A stretch of DNA of 64,000 nucleotides from Treponema sp. (GTDB lineage: Bacteria; Spirochaetota; Spirochaetia; Treponematales; Breznakiellaceae). The stretch covers positions 1-64,000 of the forward strand of contig WQXG01000005.1 in the NCBI GenBank assembly GCA_009784975.1. The letters are read 5' to 3'. The notes below the pieces were generated by a model. That model was not told the DNA's origin and made no database searches. It saw only the letters and a program-made list of their open reading frames with translations. The first letter of the stretch is position 1. Each line of letters begins with the position of its first letter. A program made the position numbers and the translations under genes. Below, piece by piece: positions 47 to 7,710 of the stretch.

Positions 47-107
47 CTTTCCCTCCTGAGCATTGGTAATACCACCTTATAAGCTTTGGTCTAATTCGGC
101 AAGTTCA
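1..107 (-). mobile_element. End of an IS3-like insertion sequence (runs off the window)
   Basis: The complementary strand begins an element at about base 107 with TGAACTTGCCGAATTAG, a TG-starting terminus of the kind seen in IS3-family elements. A Shine-Dalgarno AGGAGGG (about 50-56) and the first codons of a transposase-like protein follow. The receiver gene to the right loses its natural end exactly here, and its stop codon (91-93) lies in this element. The family is inferred from the start of the protein and the end sequence only. The other end, the inverted repeat partner and the target duplication are outside the window. Confidence 0.6.
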
Positions 108-477
108 GCGTGGGCACAACAATTGGATAGCGCAGGTTTTCGATTTCCCGTTCAACTGATTCTTTCATTACCGGTTTTAAGATGTATCCGCTTGGGTGGA
201 GTTTTAACGCTTCGATTGCGTATTGGGAATGGGCTGTTACAAATATTATATTGATTTTTGGGTTAAGGTCTTTTAGTTGTTTTGCTACTTCCAGTCCGTT
301 CATTCCGCCCATTTGTATATCCAAAAAGGCTATGTCGCAGGGTGTTTTTTGCGCGAATACTATGAGTTCCATGGGTTTTGTAAAGGAGAAAACTTGAGCC
401 TGGGGCTGTGCTTCGGCGATAGAATTGGTTAAAAGTACAAGGGCTCTTCTACTGTCATCTATGGCTAATATTTTCAT
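91..477 (-). CDS. Response-regulator receiver protein, C-terminus cut off by an insertion sequence
   Basis: This is a CheY-like receiver domain of 128 residues. The acidic pair is D7/D8, the phospho-acceptor is D53 in FLDIQM, the conserved Thr is in FVTAHS near 81, and the Lys is in YILKPV near 103. The last residues (LNLPN) and the stop codon come from the adjoining IS end, so the original protein was longer. Receivers with this sequence style often carry a C-terminal DNA-binding or transcriptional activator domain, which would now be missing (inference). Upstream, TATATA lies five bases before the ATG and there is no Shine-Dalgarno. The receiver could still fold, but any output function is probably lost. 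Confidence 0.75.
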   Translation of the reverse strand: MKILAIDDSRRALVLLTNSIAEAQPQAQVFSFTKPMELIVFAQKTPCDIAFLDIQMGGMNGLEVAKQLKDLNPKINIIFVTAHSQYAIEALKLHPSGYILKPVMKESVEREIENLRYPIVVPTLNLPN

Positions 478-617
478 CTGGTTATATAAAAATATACTAA
501 ATTTACCTGCTGTTTACAAGGAACTACTAACAGCAAAGGTATCAAAGAATTTTTACCACGAACAGAGGCGAACGGGAGAAAGATGGAAAAATCGAGCTCC
601 CCCCCTTGCTATTTATT

Positions 618-652
618 TATAATCTTGTTATCGTTAACGAACGGTCGTTAAC
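618..652 (+). promoter_or_regulatory. Promoter -10 and palindromic operator of the efflux operon
   Basis: TATAAT lies at 618-623. The near-perfect palindrome GTTAACGAACGGTCGTTAAC occupies 633-652, with 8-base arms and one mismatched pair near the centre. It ends directly against the ATG at 653. A dyad of this length is typical of TetR-family operators, and it stands before a TetR-type gene, so autoregulation of the whole efflux operon is likely (inference). Transcription would start near 630, so the operator forms nearly all of the 5' leader and there is no Shine-Dalgarno. I see nothing else in 478-617. Confidence 0.7.
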
Positions 653-1843
653 ATGACAAAAATAGAAATTGTAGACGCGGCGTTCCGGGTATGGGGCCGC
701 AACCTTTACAGAAAAACCAGCCTCTCACAGCTTGCCGGGGAATTGGGGGTTAGCAAACCTGCCCTTTACCGGCATTACAGGAATAAACAGGCGCTAATTG
801 ATGCCATGACCGAGCGGTTTCTTGAGGATTTTTCCGGTTCCACCCGGGCGGATTTTGAAAAAGCACAAAAAACAGAGGATGCGGATGAAGGGATCTCTGC
901 CATAATAAAGAGTATTTCCGGGTTCTTTGCCAGAAATGTATATGCCCTTGTATTCTCTTTGATAAATTTGTATGACCGTAATCTGGACGGTAAAGCAATA
1001 GCACAGCGGCTGAAATCCTATGGGGTAGATATTGCCGTATTGCAGCAAATTATCGAAAAAAAATATGAAAGCGAGCCTAAAATGGTACGGCTTGTATTTG
1101 CTACCCTTACTTTTTTAATGTCGAATTTTCACAGAACAAAAAAATCCATGTTAAATCCGCCTGCAGAGGAAGACATTCAAACTATTTTAAATACCATTTA
1201 TAATACGATAGCCTTTGGGCTTAGGTTTTCTTCTAAAAAAACCGCGTTAGATTTTGAAGTTATGGAAAAACAGGTTTATGAAATGCCGCTTAACGCGAAG
1301 CCGGAGCCTTTTTTTAAAGCTGTAGCGGAAGCTGTCGCGGAAGCGGGACCCTGGGATGTATCCATGGAAATGGTTGCAAAACGTCTGGGGCTTTCCAAAA
1401 GCAGTCTTTACGGTCATTTTAAAAACAGAAAAGATATGCTGCGCCGCCTTTTTGTTACCGAGTTTAAACGTATTATAGAATTTGCAAGACAGGGAATCGG
1501 TTTGTCTTCCGATACCGAAGGGCAATTATACCGCGGGATTTTTTCAATTGCGGTTTATCTTCGTTCACGCCCCGAAATACTTGTCGCTATGGACTGGATT
1601 CGTACACGCAAACTGGATTTCGGCAAACATGATAAAAATATTGAAATTTACAGGCTCTTTGAAGATGTAGATATTAAAGCGCTGCATAATTCCACAGAAG
1701 AGGACAGACAGCGCATTTCTCACTGGATTTTGTTTTTACTAATAAATATTTTACTGCATCCGAATCAGGAAAAGACGCAAAATAACGATATTCGTCTTTT
1801 ATATAATTTTATCACTTTGGGTTTAGGAGGTTTTGTCCGATGA
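653..1843 (+). CDS. Tandem TetR-family transcriptional regulator (two TetR units in one chain)
   Basis: This is a probable repressor of the efflux genes that follow. The 396-residue chain is twice the usual TetR length and has two TetR-type helix-turn-helix domains. The first is at about 1-60 (LAGELGVSKPALYRHYRNK). The second is at about 215-275 (VAKRLGLSKSSLYGHFKNR). Each is followed by an all-helical region resembling a ligand/dimer domain. Such a chain may bind the single palindrome at 633-652 as an intramolecular pseudo-dimer (inference). The start codon abuts that operator and has no Shine-Dalgarno. The stop overlaps the next ATG by 4 bases, so regulator and pump are one operon. The inducer is unknown. 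Confidence 0.85.
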   Translation: MTKIEIVDAAFRVWGRNLYRKTSLSQLAGELGVSKPALYRHYRNKQALIDAMTERFLEDFSGSTRADFEKAQKTEDADEGISAIIKSISGFFARNVYALVFSLINLYDRNLDGKAIAQRLKSYGVDIAVLQQIIEKKYESEPKMVRLVFATLTFLMSNFHRTKKSMLNPPAEEDIQTILNTIYNTIAFGLRFSSKKTALDFEVMEKQVYEMPLNAKPEPFFKAVAEAVAEAGPWDVSMEMVAKRLGLSKSSLYGHFKNRKDMLRRLFVTEFKRIIEFARQGIGLSSDTEGQLYRGIFSIAVYLRSRPEILVAMDWIRTRKLDFGKHDKNIEIYRLFEDVDIKALHNSTEEDRQRISHWILFLLINILLHPNQEKTQNNDIRLLYNFITLGLGGFVR

Positions 1844-3315
1844 AAAATAAATATTACGGAATAACATTCTGTCTTGCAATGATTGTGTTATCTGCAAATT
1901 TACAGGCGCAGGAAATAATGCGTTTAAGCCCCGCTCAGGCTGTAGACCTTGCAATTAAAAACAATTTGGGGCTTGAATCTTCCAGAGCAAATCTTGCGGC
2001 AAGAAAACGCGCTTCTGATTTATCATGGAATCAATTTATACCCAATGTTTCTGTTGCGGGAATTCTTAACAGGGATAATCAGCCGAACACGCTTACAGGA
2101 TTAGCGCATGTACCATGGGATGATCGTTTTGCTTTGATGGGTTTGAACCAAGGTCAGTTTGAACTCTCTGTACCAACTATAGGAACTTTTTATAATTACG
2201 TCATGCCTTATTCTATTGAACTGCCACAGTGGCGTGTTGCAGGTAACATTCAGGCTTCGCTTAATATCAGCATTGCAATGTTTGAAAATATAAAAAGGCT
2301 CCGCCTTGATTATGAAACGGGGCTTTTAAGTTATGATAAAGCAAAACGTCAGCTTGAACGTGATGTCCGCAAAGCGTATCACAATATGCTTTTGCTGCAG
2401 GAAAATATCGCTCTTTTACACAGCAGTTTCGCGAATCTGGAAAGGCAGGTGCAAATGGCGCAGGCAAATTACAATGCGGGGCTCGCGCCGGAACTGGTTT
2501 TACTGCAGGTGCGCGTTGCAAGAGAAAATATGCGCCCCATAATTGATCAGGCGGAAAACGGAATGAAACTTTCCATGGCGCAGTTTGCCATGTTCCTTGG
2601 GCTTGATTTTAATACTCAATTTGAGCTAATCCCGATAGCGGGAAATGTTATACAGGGTGATTTTATTCCCATTGATGTAACAGAAATGATTAAACAGGCA
2701 GCATCAAAAAAACCTGATATTCAGGAATTAAGATCTACAATTATGATGCTGCAAAGCGCGCGTAAAATGTCAATTTATTCGCTTGCTCCTGTTTTAAATT
2801 TAAGCTGGAATAATACATCCGCTTTTATTAAAGATCCCTGGAAAGACAACTGGTTTTCAAGCGCTGATGACTGGCGGCATTCAGGTTCTTTTTCAATTAC
2901 ATTCGCTCTTCGCCTTCATAGTCTGATTCCTTTTAGTACGGATTTTCAGGGTATCAGAAATCTGGATGATCAGATAAAAACCGCGACTATCGGTCTTGCG
3001 CAGCTTGTTTACGGAACAGAAATAGAAGTTTACAATAGCGTGCTTGCGCTGGAAAGAACGCGCATTAACACAGAAGCGCTTTCTCAGACAGTAGGTTTGG
3101 CGCAGCAATCATACCGCCTTACGGAGCAGGCTTACCAAGCGGGCTTACAGGATTATTTTCAGGTTCAAAACGCGGAACAATCTTTACGTCAGGCAAGAGT
3201 TCAATTGCTGGAACAGCAGTTCAATTACCTTAACGGTTTAATAGATTTAGAATATTCAATCGGCGTTCCATTCGGAACACTAAGTAACATGGCTGTAAAC
3301 AGCCGGGAGAATTAA
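1840..3315 (+). CDS. TolC-like outer membrane efflux protein
   Basis: This is the outer-membrane channel component of a tripartite RND exporter. The 491-residue protein begins with a signal peptide (hydrophobic to about residue 20, cleavage likely after ANLQAQ). It contains the two alpha-helical, coiled-coil-rich outer membrane efflux repeats (about 25-250 and 280-480), with typical segments such as LLQENIALL and QSLRQARVQLLEQQ. The Shine-Dalgarno TAGGAGG lies inside the end of the regulator gene, and the ATG overlaps its stop by 4 bases. The fusion-protein gene follows 2 bases after the stop. Confidence 0.88.
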   Translation: MKNKYYGITFCLAMIVLSANLQAQEIMRLSPAQAVDLAIKNNLGLESSRANLAARKRASDLSWNQFIPNVSVAGILNRDNQPNTLTGLAHVPWDDRFALMGLNQGQFELSVPTIGTFYNYVMPYSIELPQWRVAGNIQASLNISIAMFENIKRLRLDYETGLLSYDKAKRQLERDVRKAYHNMLLLQENIALLHSSFANLERQVQMAQANYNAGLAPELVLLQVRVARENMRPIIDQAENGMKLSMAQFAMFLGLDFNTQFELIPIAGNVIQGDFIPIDVTEMIKQAASKKPDIQELRSTIMMLQSARKMSIYSLAPVLNLSWNNTSAFIKDPWKDNWFSSADDWRHSGSFSITFALRLHSLIPFSTDFQGIRNLDDQIKTATIGLAQLVYGTEIEVYNSVLALERTRINTEALSQTVGLAQQSYRLTEQAYQAGLQDYFQVQNAEQSLRQARVQLLEQQFNYLNGLIDLEYSIGVPFGTLSNMAVNSREN

Positions 3316-3317
3316 AA

Positions 3318-4235
3318 ATGAAAAATCTTTTTTCAATATTGTTATCAATAATTGTTATCTTTTCCGGATGCTCGCGGGATAAAAAAGACGCTGTAGCAGA
3401 TGTGCCTGTGTTTGCTGTTAATACCACTTTGGCGGCAGAAGGGCAGATTCAGGATTATATCACGCTTACAGGTGATATTATTGCAGGTTCCACAGTGGAT
3501 GTTTTTTCTGATGCGGCAGGAAGAATTACAGAACTATTTGTTTCTGTAGGAACCAGGGTAAACAGGGGCAGCCCGATTGCGTCTGTTGATCCGTCCCGTC
3601 CCGGAATGACATTCCGGCAGAGCATCGTAACGGCGCCGATAAGCGGAACCATTGTCATGATGCCGGCGCAGGTTGGCATGACAATCAGTCAGGCGGTGCC
3701 GCTTGCGCGCATTGCGGGAGGCGGAGGTCTTGAAATACGGCTTAACGCGGCGGAAAGATTTATCTCCAGAATGGCAATGAATCTGTCCTGCGAAATTACT
3801 GTTGACGCATGGCCGGGTGATGTTTTTTACGGAAGCGTAACGGAAGTATCGCCTACTGTAGATGTTATTTCCAGAACCATGGAAGTGCGCGTTAATGCAA
3901 GGGATTCAGGCGCTAAATTAAAACCGGGGATGTTTGCCAAAGTGCGTGTTATCACAGAGCGGAAAAACAATATAGTAAAAATTCCGGCTTCTGCAGTTAT
4001 AAACAGATTCGGAGAGCAATATGTTTATGTATTGGCAAAAGACGAAGAAAACCCGGAAATAGATATAGTAAGAAAAAGAATTATCACACCGGGAATTTTA
4101 ATTGACGGGGTTATGGAAATTCAGAACGGACTGTCTCCCGATGAGGAAATTGTTGTAAGGGGGCACACTCTGCTTGATGACGGATCAAGAGTAAATATAA
4201 TTGAACGTATTTCTCCTTTAAGGGAGCAGTTATGA
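3318..4235 (+). CDS. RND efflux periplasmic adaptor (membrane fusion) lipoprotein
   Basis: This is the adaptor that links the inner-membrane pump to the TolC-like channel. The 305-residue protein starts with a lipoprotein signal peptide, lipobox FSGC with Cys18. It has the usual HlyD/AcrA-type order: a split biotinyl/lipoyl-like barrel half (GRITELFVSVGTRVNRGSPI and SGTIVMMPAQVGMTI), a beta-barrel (about 130-205), and a membrane-proximal domain with VVRGHTLLDDGSRVNI near the end. The helical hairpin is very short, so the two lipoyl halves are nearly contiguous and the chain is shorter than AcrA. The stop overlaps the pump ATG by 4 bases. Confidence 0.87.
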   Translation: MKNLFSILLSIIVIFSGCSRDKKDAVADVPVFAVNTTLAAEGQIQDYITLTGDIIAGSTVDVFSDAAGRITELFVSVGTRVNRGSPIASVDPSRPGMTFRQSIVTAPISGTIVMMPAQVGMTISQAVPLARIAGGGGLEIRLNAAERFISRMAMNLSCEITVDAWPGDVFYGSVTEVSPTVDVISRTMEVRVNARDSGAKLKPGMFAKVRVITERKNNIVKIPASAVINRFGEQYVYVLAKDEENPEIDIVRKRIITPGILIDGVMEIQNGLSPDEEIVVRGHTLLDDGSRVNIIERISPLREQL

Positions 4236-7200
4236 GCATGGTTAAAACGGTCGTTTCACGGCCAACAACAATCTTAATAATTTTTGCCCTGCTTATCGGG
4301 CTTGGATTATTCGCGATGGTAAACCTGCCGATAGACCTTTATCCGGAAATAAATCTGCCTATTTTAGCAGTGTATACTTCGTACAGCGGAGCCGGACCCG
4401 AAGAAGTAGAACGATCCGTTACGCGCCTTCTGGAGGCAATATTGTCCAGTGTCTCGGGGCTGGAAAATATAACATCCATGTCCAGCAAGGGATTAAGCCT
4501 TATAATTATGGAGTTTACCTACGGAACAAATATATCCGAAGCATCCAACTCCATCCGCGACTCGCTTGAACGTGTCAGAAATTATATGCCGGCAGGCGCG
4601 CAAGCTCCAATTATTTTTAAAGCGGATCCTTCCATGATACCTATCATGACGCTCATGGTAACATCTGACAGGCGTACTTCGGAAGAGTTACGCGAAATCG
4701 CGGAAGACACAATTATTCCAAGGATAGAACAGACACCGGGTATTTCTACAGCTTCTGTAAACGGAGGCAGGGAAAAAATTATCAGGGTGGAAATTCCGCA
4801 AAGCCGCCTTGAAGCCTACAATTTAACCATTACTCAGATACAGCAGATGCTTGCTGTACAAAATATGCAAACATCCGCCGGAACCATCACTGATGGGGGA
4901 ATGTCGTACATTTTAACTACAATGGGCGAGTTTACATCACTGGATGATATAAGAAATACTGTTGTTTCCTACAGGGGCGGAGGCCTTGTAGGAGGACAGG
5001 TTGTGCCGCCTCGCCAGATTTTTTTACGCGACCTTGCCGATGTATTTGAAGGCTATAGGGATGAAACCAGCATAGTTTATGTTAACGGGCAGCCTGCTGT
5101 TACAATGGCTGTACAAAAACAAAGCGGAAAAAATTCCGTGCAGACAGCAAAAGAATTACGCGCAAGACTGGAAAGAATGAAAAGAGGGCTTCCGTCTGAT
5201 ATCGTTATAACAGAACTTTTTAACAGCACCGATATCGTGGAAAATTCCCTTAATCAGGTAACATCTACCGCGTTTATGGGTGCCATCCTTGCCATATTAA
5301 CGCTCTTTTTATTCCTTCGTTCCGCAAAACCTACAATAATAATAGGTATTAGTATACCCGTATCAGTAATTATCACCATAATGTTTATGTATTTTGCAGG
5401 TCTTACCCTAAACCTTATGACAATGGCAGGACTTGTACTTGGAATAGGAATGCTGATTGACAATTCAATTGTCATTCTGGAAAATATTTACCAATACCGG
5501 GAAAAAGGCGCAAAACTAAAAACAGCATCCATACTGGGTACTTCAGAAATGATAGTAGCCATCACTGCTTCCACCCTTACAACAATCTGCGTATTCGCTC
5601 CAATGATAATGTTTCAGGGTCTTCTTGAAATGGCAGGTGAATTATTTTCCGGGCTCGCCTTTACCGTTGTTATATCGCTTGGGATTTCGCTTTTAACCGC
5701 AATTTTCCTCGTTCCGGTTCTTTGCAGCCACTACCTTCCGATTGTTACGCGAAAACAAGTGCCCCTTAAAGGCAAGCTTGCCGCAATTGACGCAAAATTT
5801 GACAAGTTTTTCGTTTGGCTGGATACCAAATATAAAAACGCGGTAACAAGAATACTAAAGCGTAAACTTGCAGTTATTCTTGTATTGCTTGGTTTACTTA
5901 TTGTAAGCGTTATACTAATTCCCGTTATTGGCTGGGAATTCATGCCTCAGCAGGAAGATGATAATGTTAACATAACGGCAACTCTTCCTATGGGAACTAC
6001 GCTTCAGGAAACTGAAGCTGTATTAAGGCAGCTCCAGCTTATTGTAGAAAGGGAAATTGTAGGGTATCAGAGGCTTGTTATCCGCGCCGGAGGCGGCGGT
6101 ATTATGACGCTTGGAATGAGTAATACAAATTCCGGATCTCTTCGCATAAACCTGCCGGAATATTCACAAAGAATAGAAAGCGCTAATGAAATAAAAGATA
6201 TTCTGGAACCCTATCTTGATCAATTCCCGGGAGTTATTTTTTCATACGGCGGCGGCATGGGAATGAACATGATGGGCGGCAGTAATGTAGATATTATTTT
6301 ACGCACAGATAATCTTGTAAAAGGCAAAGCTATGGGAGAAAGGATCGCATCCTTGCTTAAAGAAAGGCTTTCGGATTATATAACAGAACCTCAGGTTGAT
6401 TTAAAAGACGGACTGCCTCAATATGAAATCGTTCTGGATCGCGATAAAATGTACGCTCTTGGACTTAACACATTTACCGTAGGCAATGAAATAAAAGCCG
6501 CTGTTGACGGCGTAACCGCGACAAGATACAAAACAGGCGGTAAAGATTACGATGTTATTTTAATTCTCGCAGAAGCAGATCGCAGCACATTACCTTCACT
6601 TGATCATATTTTTATAAACAGCCAGCTTGCGGGCAGGGTGCCTCTTTCCAGCTTTGTTCAGTATCAGGAAGGAACAGGACCTTTAACAATTACCCGCGAG
6701 AATCAAAGCCGTGTTATTCATGTAACTGCAAGAGCAAGACCCGGAGTTAGAACAAATCATTTGCAGGATCTTGTAGAAAATCTTATAAGAACAGAAATTC
6801 CTGTAGAAGACGATGTTATAATTGAGTACGGCGGCGCAAACGCGCAGATGGTAAAAATATTCGGAAGGTTTATATTCATTTGTGTTGTGGCAATCCTTTT
6901 GGTCTTTGGCATTATGGCAAGTTTATTTGAATCGTTCCGTTCTCCGTTTATAATTATTCTTACTATTCCTCTTTCTGTAATCGGGATTGTCGCTATTTAT
7001 CTTATTACAAATACTATCTTTAACGTATTAACCGCTGTTGGACTTTTGGTATTGATTGGAATTATAACCAACAACGGAATTATTCTAGTTGATTACACAA
7101 ACCTTCTTCGCAAACGCGGCTATCCGCTGAATGACGCGATTATCGAAGCTGCCCGCAGCCGTCTTCGCCCTATTTTAATGACAACTGTCACCACGATACT

Positions 7201-7438
7201 TGGGCTTGTACCCATGGCATTCTTCCCCGGCGAAGGCACTGAACTTGTCGCTCCAATCGGAAAGACTGTTCTTGGCGGATTATCATTCGGCACGCTTATG
7301 ACTCTATTCCTGATGCCTGTTGTTTACGCTATAATTAATAAACATTCAGACAAGCGTCTTGCCAAAGCGCAGGAAAAGCGCGAAAAGATCGCCGCGGGCG
7401 AAGGCCGTTCAAAATTTAAAATGGAGGAACATCAATAA
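4232..7438 (+). CDS. RND family efflux transporter permease (AcrB/HAE1-like)
   Basis: This is an inner-membrane proton-driven export pump. Its 1068 residues are the usual RND length, with an N-terminal helix followed by RPTTILIIFALLIGLGLFAM. There are two large periplasmic loops (about 40-335 and 560-860) and two blocks of membrane helices. TM4 carries GIGMLIDNSIVILENI, so the aspartate pair of AcrB (D407/D408) is D-N here. TM10 has TNNGIILVDY, with Asn at the place of the AcrB Lys. This combination is common in one RND subfamily, so the proton relay differs in detail from AcrB. The C-terminus is a charged tail. The substrate is unknown, and the regulator suggests toxic compounds. TAATG couples it to the next gene. 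Confidence 0.9.
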   Translation: MSMVKTVVSRPTTILIIFALLIGLGLFAMVNLPIDLYPEINLPILAVYTSYSGAGPEEVERSVTRLLEAILSSVSGLENITSMSSKGLSLIIMEFTYGTNISEASNSIRDSLERVRNYMPAGAQAPIIFKADPSMIPIMTLMVTSDRRTSEELREIAEDTIIPRIEQTPGISTASVNGGREKIIRVEIPQSRLEAYNLTITQIQQMLAVQNMQTSAGTITDGGMSYILTTMGEFTSLDDIRNTVVSYRGGGLVGGQVVPPRQIFLRDLADVFEGYRDETSIVYVNGQPAVTMAVQKQSGKNSVQTAKELRARLERMKRGLPSDIVITELFNSTDIVENSLNQVTSTAFMGAILAILTLFLFLRSAKPTIIIGISIPVSVIITIMFMYFAGLTLNLMTMAGLVLGIGMLIDNSIVILENIYQYREKGAKLKTASILGTSEMIVAITASTLTTICVFAPMIMFQGLLEMAGELFSGLAFTVVISLGISLLTAIFLVPVLCSHYLPIVTRKQVPLKGKLAAIDAKFDKFFVWLDTKYKNAVTRILKRKLAVILVLLGLLIVSVILIPVIGWEFMPQQEDDNVNITATLPMGTTLQETEAVLRQLQLIVEREIVGYQRLVIRAGGGGIMTLGMSNTNSGSLRINLPEYSQRIESANEIKDILEPYLDQFPGVIFSYGGGMGMNMMGGSNVDIILRTDNLVKGKAMGERIASLLKERLSDYITEPQVDLKDGLPQYEIVLDRDKMYALGLNTFTVGNEIKAAVDGVTATRYKTGGKDYDVILILAEADRSTLPSLDHIFINSQLAGRVPLSSFVQYQEGTGPLTITRENQSRVIHVTARARPGVRTNHLQDLVENLIRTEIPVEDDVIIEYGGANAQMVKIFGRFIFICVVAILLVFGIMASLFESFRSPFIIILTIPLSVIGIVAIYLITNTIFNVLTAVGLLVLIGIITNNGIILVDYTNLLRKRGYPLNDAIIEAARSRLRPILMTTVTTILGLVPMAFFPGEGTELVAPIGKTVLGGLSFGTLMTLFLMPVVYAIINKHSDKRLAKAQEKREKIAAGEGRSKFKMEEHQ

Positions 7439-7710
7439 TGAAAAGGATAGAAATAATAGCCAATCGTTCAGTAGAAGAAAACATTCTTGAAGCGCTTGCC
7501 AAAGAGCAGGTTGGAAAATACTACACAATGATTCCCAATGTTTTTGGAGTAGGCGCCTGCGGTCCCCGCATGGGAACCGCAGTATGGCCGGAAGAAAATT
7601 TTTCGATTGTGATATGGTGCGAAGAAGAGGAAGCCCAGGGTATCCAAAAAGCAATTGCGGCAGTAAAGGAAAAATTCCCGGGAGAAGGAATAAAACTGTT
7701 CGGGATCTAG
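7438..7710 (+). CDS. Small P-II-like, RND-transporter-associated protein (PG0541-like)
   Basis: This 90-residue protein resembles the small P-II-fold proteins encoded after RND pumps in Bacteroidetes and spirochaetes (the family named after PG0541). Its start (MKRIEIIANRSVEENILEAL) and end (AIAAVKEKFPGEGIKLFGI) fit a ferredoxin-like beta-alpha-beta fold. It lacks a signal peptide, so it should act in the cytoplasm, perhaps on the pump (inference). The ATG overlaps the pump stop by one base. The gene is three bases from the convergent PilZ gene, and no terminator is visible between them. Confidence 0.72.
   Translation: MKRIEIIANRSVEENILEALAKEQVGKYYTMIPNVFGVGACGPRMGTAVWPEENFSIVIWCEEEEAQGIQKAIAAVKEKFPGEGIKLFGI

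Follow-up and report, generated by a model that had tools for sequence, protein, structure and literature searches.

A new class-wide group of double TetR proteins in spirochaetes, and its proposed role as a single-chain repressor of an RND efflux operon

In the 64,000-nucleotide stretch of Treponema sp. DNA analysed here (the window), one open frame codes for a protein of 396 residues that contains two TetR units, and this gene stands first in an operon for an RND efflux pump. The protein is probably a local, self-regulating repressor of that operon, which would act as a single-chain pseudo-dimer on a 20-bp quasi-palindrome and be released by a ligand. Double TetR repressors are known already, with Mce3R as the example, and the spirochaete proteins are a new, class-wide group of that kind. 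Compared with Mce3R, the phylum is another one, the operator is near-palindromic and the operon behind it is that of an RND pump. Literature searches brought up no paper on double TetRs of spirochaetes, which is no proof of absence, and one solved structure of a double TetR was found.

Organization of the locus

The following features were assigned to the repressor gene, its upstream region and the genes behind it.

606..611, plus strand: putative -35 hexamer TTGCTA, a weak assignment from the best-scoring pair (spacing to the putative -10, 17 bp)
626..634, plus strand: putative extended -10, TGT-TATCGT, whose hexamer (629-634) shares its last two bases with the start of the operator
633..652, plus strand: operator GTTAACGAACGGTCGTTAAC, an 18-of-20 dyad, whose last base adjoins the ATG
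653..1843, plus strand: double TetR repressor gene, 396 aa (open frame, domain matches, structure model)
668..808, plus strand: TetR_N domain 1, head 1 (PF00440, 50.0 bits)
1325..1447, plus strand: TetR_N domain 2, head 2 (PF00440, 37.6 bits)
1840..3315, plus strand: TolC-type outer membrane efflux protein (PF02321, 132 bits)
3318..4235, plus strand: RND periplasmic adaptor (TIGR01730, above cut-off)
4232..7438, plus strand: RND efflux permease (PF00873, 777 bits)
7438..7710, plus strand: PG0541-family PII-like transporter-associated protein (NF045581, 88 bits, cut-off 45)

The gene order is double TetR, TolC, RND adaptor, RND permease and PII-like protein, and the ATG of the TolC-type gene overlaps the TGA of the double TetR gene. 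A same-strand TolC gene was found downstream of the double TetR gene in 113 of the 120 family loci whose sequence reached far enough beyond that gene. With these proteins, the likely control of the RND pump in many spirochaetes can now be named. Among 80 of 168 loci encoding a relative, the closest relatives with a record title were MAGs named Treponema sp., which we take to originate from termite gut. The last gene of the RND operon in the window is that of the PG0541-family PII-like protein. Divergent to the repressor gene lies a stand-alone response-regulator receiver gene (91-477, minus strand; 128 aa, PF00072). This gene was considered as a second target of the repressor and was rejected, as a similar gene was present in one of 130 loci, namely the window's own.

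Two unlike DNA-binding domains in one chain

It had been predicted from the DNA that two TetR helix-turn-helix domains lie within one 396-residue chain, and this was confirmed, as both TetR_N (PF00440) stretches encoded in the frame 653-1843 scored above the 24-bit cut-off. Two TetR units in one open frame are unlike the one-unit chains of ordinary homodimeric TetR repressors. The spirochaete protein shares with MtrR, AcrR, TtgR and TetR the HTH type, a palindromic operator over the promoter and, as proposed here, control of the neighbouring pump; however, those proteins have one unit per chain and work as symmetric homodimers, whereas the spirochaete chain contains two unlike-headed units. 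Most relatives are full-length, two-unit proteins. The window's genome has four TetR_N matches, of which two are within the double TetR protein.

The N and C halves of the protein share 22% identity (BLASTP E 1e-6). In the list of solved structures, the N half was nearest to MtrR-like chains and the C half to FadR-like chains. The double TetR may have originated either by an old duplication or by a fusion of two TetRs. An engineered single-chain TetR, in which two TetR units are joined, acts on one operator; it is man-made, whereas the spirochaete protein is natural and its halves have diverged to the extent given above.

The recognition helices of the two heads were located as follows.

Around residues 35-42: head 1 recognition helix, KPALYRHY, conserved in relatives
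Around residues 249-256: head 2 recognition helix, KSSLYGHF, conserved in relatives

In head 1 (n=188), K35 was present in all 188 sequences and A37 in 187, and position 40 was occupied by R in 178, K in 6 and H in 4. In head 2 (n=188), S250 and Y253 were both invariant (188/188); at 254, the counterpart of position 40, the usual residues were A, S, G and F, and neither R nor K was among those listed. The mean column entropy was 1.13 bits for head 1 (residues 6-52) and 1.11 bits for head 2 (219-268), as against 2.59 and 2.20 bits for the two ligand-side parts. As judged from the alignment, both heads are intact, equally conserved and consistently unlike each other. By this conservation test, there is no sign that the second domain lacks a functional recognition helix, which would have refuted the original prediction. 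Separate matches for the two TetR halves were obtained at three places (G459:C18:52163-53348, G090:C190:2490-3691 and G118:C37:14207-15217), which are either frame errors of draft genomes or split genes, whose products might form a heterodimer.

Predicted structure and comparison with Mce3R

The AlphaFold2 model of the double TetR (74 rows) had a pLDDT of 91.7 and a pTM of 0.90, and it matched many solved TetR chains with the all-helical TetR fold. The best Foldseek match was Mce3R (9b7y; E 3.9e-5). By VIA-align, residues 1-390 of the model were superimposed on 9b7y over 336 residues (Z 21.3, rmsd 4.5), and the next entry gave a Z of 13.4 and covered one unit. The identity in the structural alignment with Mce3R was 14%. 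Mce3R (Rv1963c) from M. tuberculosis is described as a double TetR solved on DNA, in which one chain places both unlike heads on one site; the heads of one chain, about 32 A apart, fit into adjacent major grooves, and a chain by itself acts like a typical TetR dimer (PMC11667970). The same paper cites 204 predicted double TetR cases in actinomycetes (PMC11667970).

The pairing of the two TetR units inside one chain as a pseudo-dimer is well supported by prediction, with the caveat that the known TetR dimer arrangement may be copied by AlphaFold. One chain would fold as an internal TetR 'dimer', in which the N half and the C half form a shared core with a head on each side. Because one Mce3R chain fills one site, one spirochaete chain should by analogy fill one operator, and its two unlike recognition helices would sit on the two halves of the 20-bp quasi-palindrome. 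An intramolecular pseudo-dimer with two different heads was the central proposal of the original prediction, and, at the level of prediction, it is upheld by the pTM, the end-to-end match to 9b7y, the unlike conserved helices and the mostly unequal operator halves described below.

The spirochaete protein and Mce3R have in common a chain of about 400 residues, two TetR units and the predicted overall fold. Mce3R is an autoregulated local repressor, and the same role is proposed for the spirochaete double TetR. In a sequence profile, positions 3-63 of the double TetR matched Mce3R 16-76 (offset 13), that is, the N-terminal head only. From this alignment, R40 of head 1 stands at the place of Arg53, a residue essential in Mce3R, where its change to alanine abolished binding (PMC11667970). 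Head 2, in contrast, has no Arg at the place that matches Mce3R Arg257 by motif spacing. The operators also differ: Mce3R binds close to an operon for lipid transport, at two sites of 25 bp that are not palindromes, whereas the spirochaete protein has one 20-bp near-palindrome before the RND pump operon, in the window the 18-of-20 dyad.

The operator and its relation to the promoter

The near-perfect 20-base palindrome that had been predicted to adjoin the ATG is indeed present, since nine of the ten positions of the dyad at 633-652 pair (18 of 20 bases) and its last base directly precedes the start codon. Its halves, GTTAACGAAC and GTTAACGACC, are unequal at position 9 alone, and position 5 is A/A. 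With up to 3 mismatches allowed, the window has no second match to this operator, and 100 shuffled sequences gave none at all. Across the 2.6-Mb genome, the family operator pattern was matched once when up to 2 mismatches were allowed; its reversed control was matched nowhere. Of the order's 390 genomes, 158 contained the pattern GTTAMCGANNNNTCGKTAAC, with values of 0 in the control columns that were listed.

Matches to the double TetR were obtained in 143 of the 195 genomes of the window's family (E <= 1e-15), and with a 37-row profile (E <= 1e-20) the order gave 199 matching genomes out of 390 and the class 69 out of 297. The 188 loci examined comprise 129 from the family, a further 19 taken at the order level, among them two family genomes, and 40 from the class level. 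The family loci are near-full-length matches from a longer match list, most partial matches being left out, and the class-level sample covers 39 of the 69 matching genomes. Using thresholds of 17/20 for the family loci and 16/20 for the remaining loci, the operator was found upstream of the double TetR in 185 of the 188 relatives. Five of the 129 family loci were below 18/20 and were left out of the counts with n=124 and of the family tree tests; two of them, at 17/20, re-enter the 185, and the other three, at 11 or 12, do not.

In the relatives, TG-N-TATANT is found immediately 5' of the operator, and conserved columns occur about 29-32 and 10 bases 5' of it. The best -10 began 9 or 10 bases 5' of the operator in 73 of 123 loci, as compared with 12 of 123 for the shuffled upstream stretch. 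In the window, a consensus scan listed no promoter at this place. With the operator lying over the region from the -10 to the transcription start, the simplest mechanism is that RNA polymerase would be shut out by the bound repressor. Release by a ligand, which is presumably a substrate of the pump, would turn on the repressor and the pump genes together.

Inequality of the operator halves

Perfect palindromes made up 15 of the 185 operators. The commonest operators were GTTAACGACCGGTCGGTAAC, counted 45 times over its two orientations, and GTTAACGACCGTTCGGTAAC, counted 25 times; in either of them a GTTAACGA half is paired with a GTTACCGA half, and such mixed operators are what two unlike heads would predict. 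The same 20-mer occurred in both orientations within one genus in five cases from four genera (two of them in g1).

At position 5, the halves were unequal in 91 of the 124 family loci. For this position, the family tree favoured linked change (p = 0.001, 4 df), and change out of the mixed state had about half the rate (p = 0.017, 1 df); the values for position 9 were p = 0.017 and 0.16. With one row per genus and operator, position 5 was unequal in 64 of 110 rows (shuffle mean 54.6, p = 0.037) and, within the window's family, in 45 of 68 (p = 0.007). Outside the window's family, it was unequal in 19 of 42 rows versus 18.6 expected (p = 0.53), and among the distinct operator sequences in 28 of 59 (p = 0.80). 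The all-loci tree gave p = 0.00024 (4 df) and 0.54 (1 df) for position 5, and 0.051 and 0.033 for position 9. All trees were built by quick methods, the one of all loci (LG+G4) carries long-branch warnings, and relatedness within genera remains; in the all-loci analysis, rare letters were handled by one pyrimidine/purine recoding. Another TetR of the same genome, L130, has no strong dyad upstream, and the asymmetry statistics therefore stand without an ordinary-TetR negative control.

Outside the main family set, A/C operators were found in a single orientation (24 vs 0). The order-level operators were C/C at position 5 in 12 of 19. When co-variation was used to assign head 1 or head 2 to a given half-site, the evidence was divided: rows at the order level deviate from the family in head 2 as well as in the A-type half, but in a clade of five rows, whose operators start CTTAACGAATGG, the A-type half is changed and head 1 has His at position 40 in four of the five.

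Taken as sequence statistics, these data lend moderate support to a selected asymmetry from unlike heads in the window's family, and such support is absent outside it. Our suggestion that the two diverged heads of single-chain, class-wide pseudo-dimers have left their imprint in the small recurring GTTAACGA/GTTACCGA asymmetry, which one genus can show in either orientation, and that this is a step between the symmetric operators of TetR and the wholly asymmetric operator of Mce3R, is a tentative one, for which we would put the chances at somewhat under even. The 185 pairs of protein and operator vary naturally in the two heads and the two half-sites, and they may serve to follow how a symmetric operator turns asymmetric once it is read by a single chain.

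The operator could instead be bound by two double-TetR chains in the manner of a homodimer, with the same head on each half and the second unit used for ligand sensing or for a second site. The near-symmetric operator of the window would also suit an ordinary two-chain dimer, and the perfect palindromes and the mixed outcome of the asymmetry tests agree with this as well. However, Mce3R-like intramolecular pairing is predicted, both heads are under equal constraint and unequal halves are in excess in the window's family; moreover, with one operator in the window's genome the other head would be left without a second target. We regard binding by two chains as unlikely, and the single-chain pseudo-dimer is preferred.

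Additional operator copies

In four order-level relatives (L241, L244, L248 and L251), two operator-like copies lie in tandem upstream of the repressor gene. In four family genomes, a second copy is located just 3' of the repressor gene, at the following positions.

G075:C116:8535-8554
G077:C91:8596-8615
G081:C1:15930-15949
G100:C104:16942-16961

From the place of the latter copies, the pump genes of these four genomes may have a controlled promoter to themselves. Both kinds of copies would be of use if the two heads bound two separate sites, looping or bridging the DNA, but the window's genome has one operator, and since the operator is a dyad of two halves, the whole site suits a pair of heads; we hold looping to be very improbable beside the pseudo-dimer on one site.

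Position of the operator relative to the start codon

The original prediction called for a comparison of the operator's place in other tandem TetR proteins. The operator itself recurs in nearly all of the relatives examined, as counted above, but its place relative to the start codon varies: among the family loci with at least 18/20, the distance from the operator end to the start codon ranged from 0 to 147 nt. A fixed place beside the start codon, which would mark a translational autoregulator acting in the leader, was not seen; the operator abutted the start codon in 13 of 124 of these loci, and in none of the 59 loci outside the main family set. By itself, the 20-nt dyad forms an 8-bp RNA hairpin of -7 kcal/mol, but with 30 nt of context its folding was no better than that of shuffles (z -0.82). 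As the weakly predicted transcript start of the window falls inside the operator, the complete hairpin would stay untranscribed. TetR proteins are DNA binders.

That the dyad acts in the message at the start codon, as a hairpin or a protein target, and sets translation of the repressor, an idea raised by the original prediction and favoured by the isolated hairpin and by the lack of a Shine-Dalgarno-like 4-mer in all 36 family loci in which 0-4 nt separate the operator and the start, is the least credible of the explanations and was rejected, because the distance to the start codon varies while the spacing to the promoter is held, and because folding in context is weak. The absence of a Shine-Dalgarno sequence before the ATG of the window was itself correctly noted, the window's locus being one of the 36. 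Where the operator was further from the start, such a 4-mer was present in 42 of 88 loci, and its absence looks like a by-product of the operator position.
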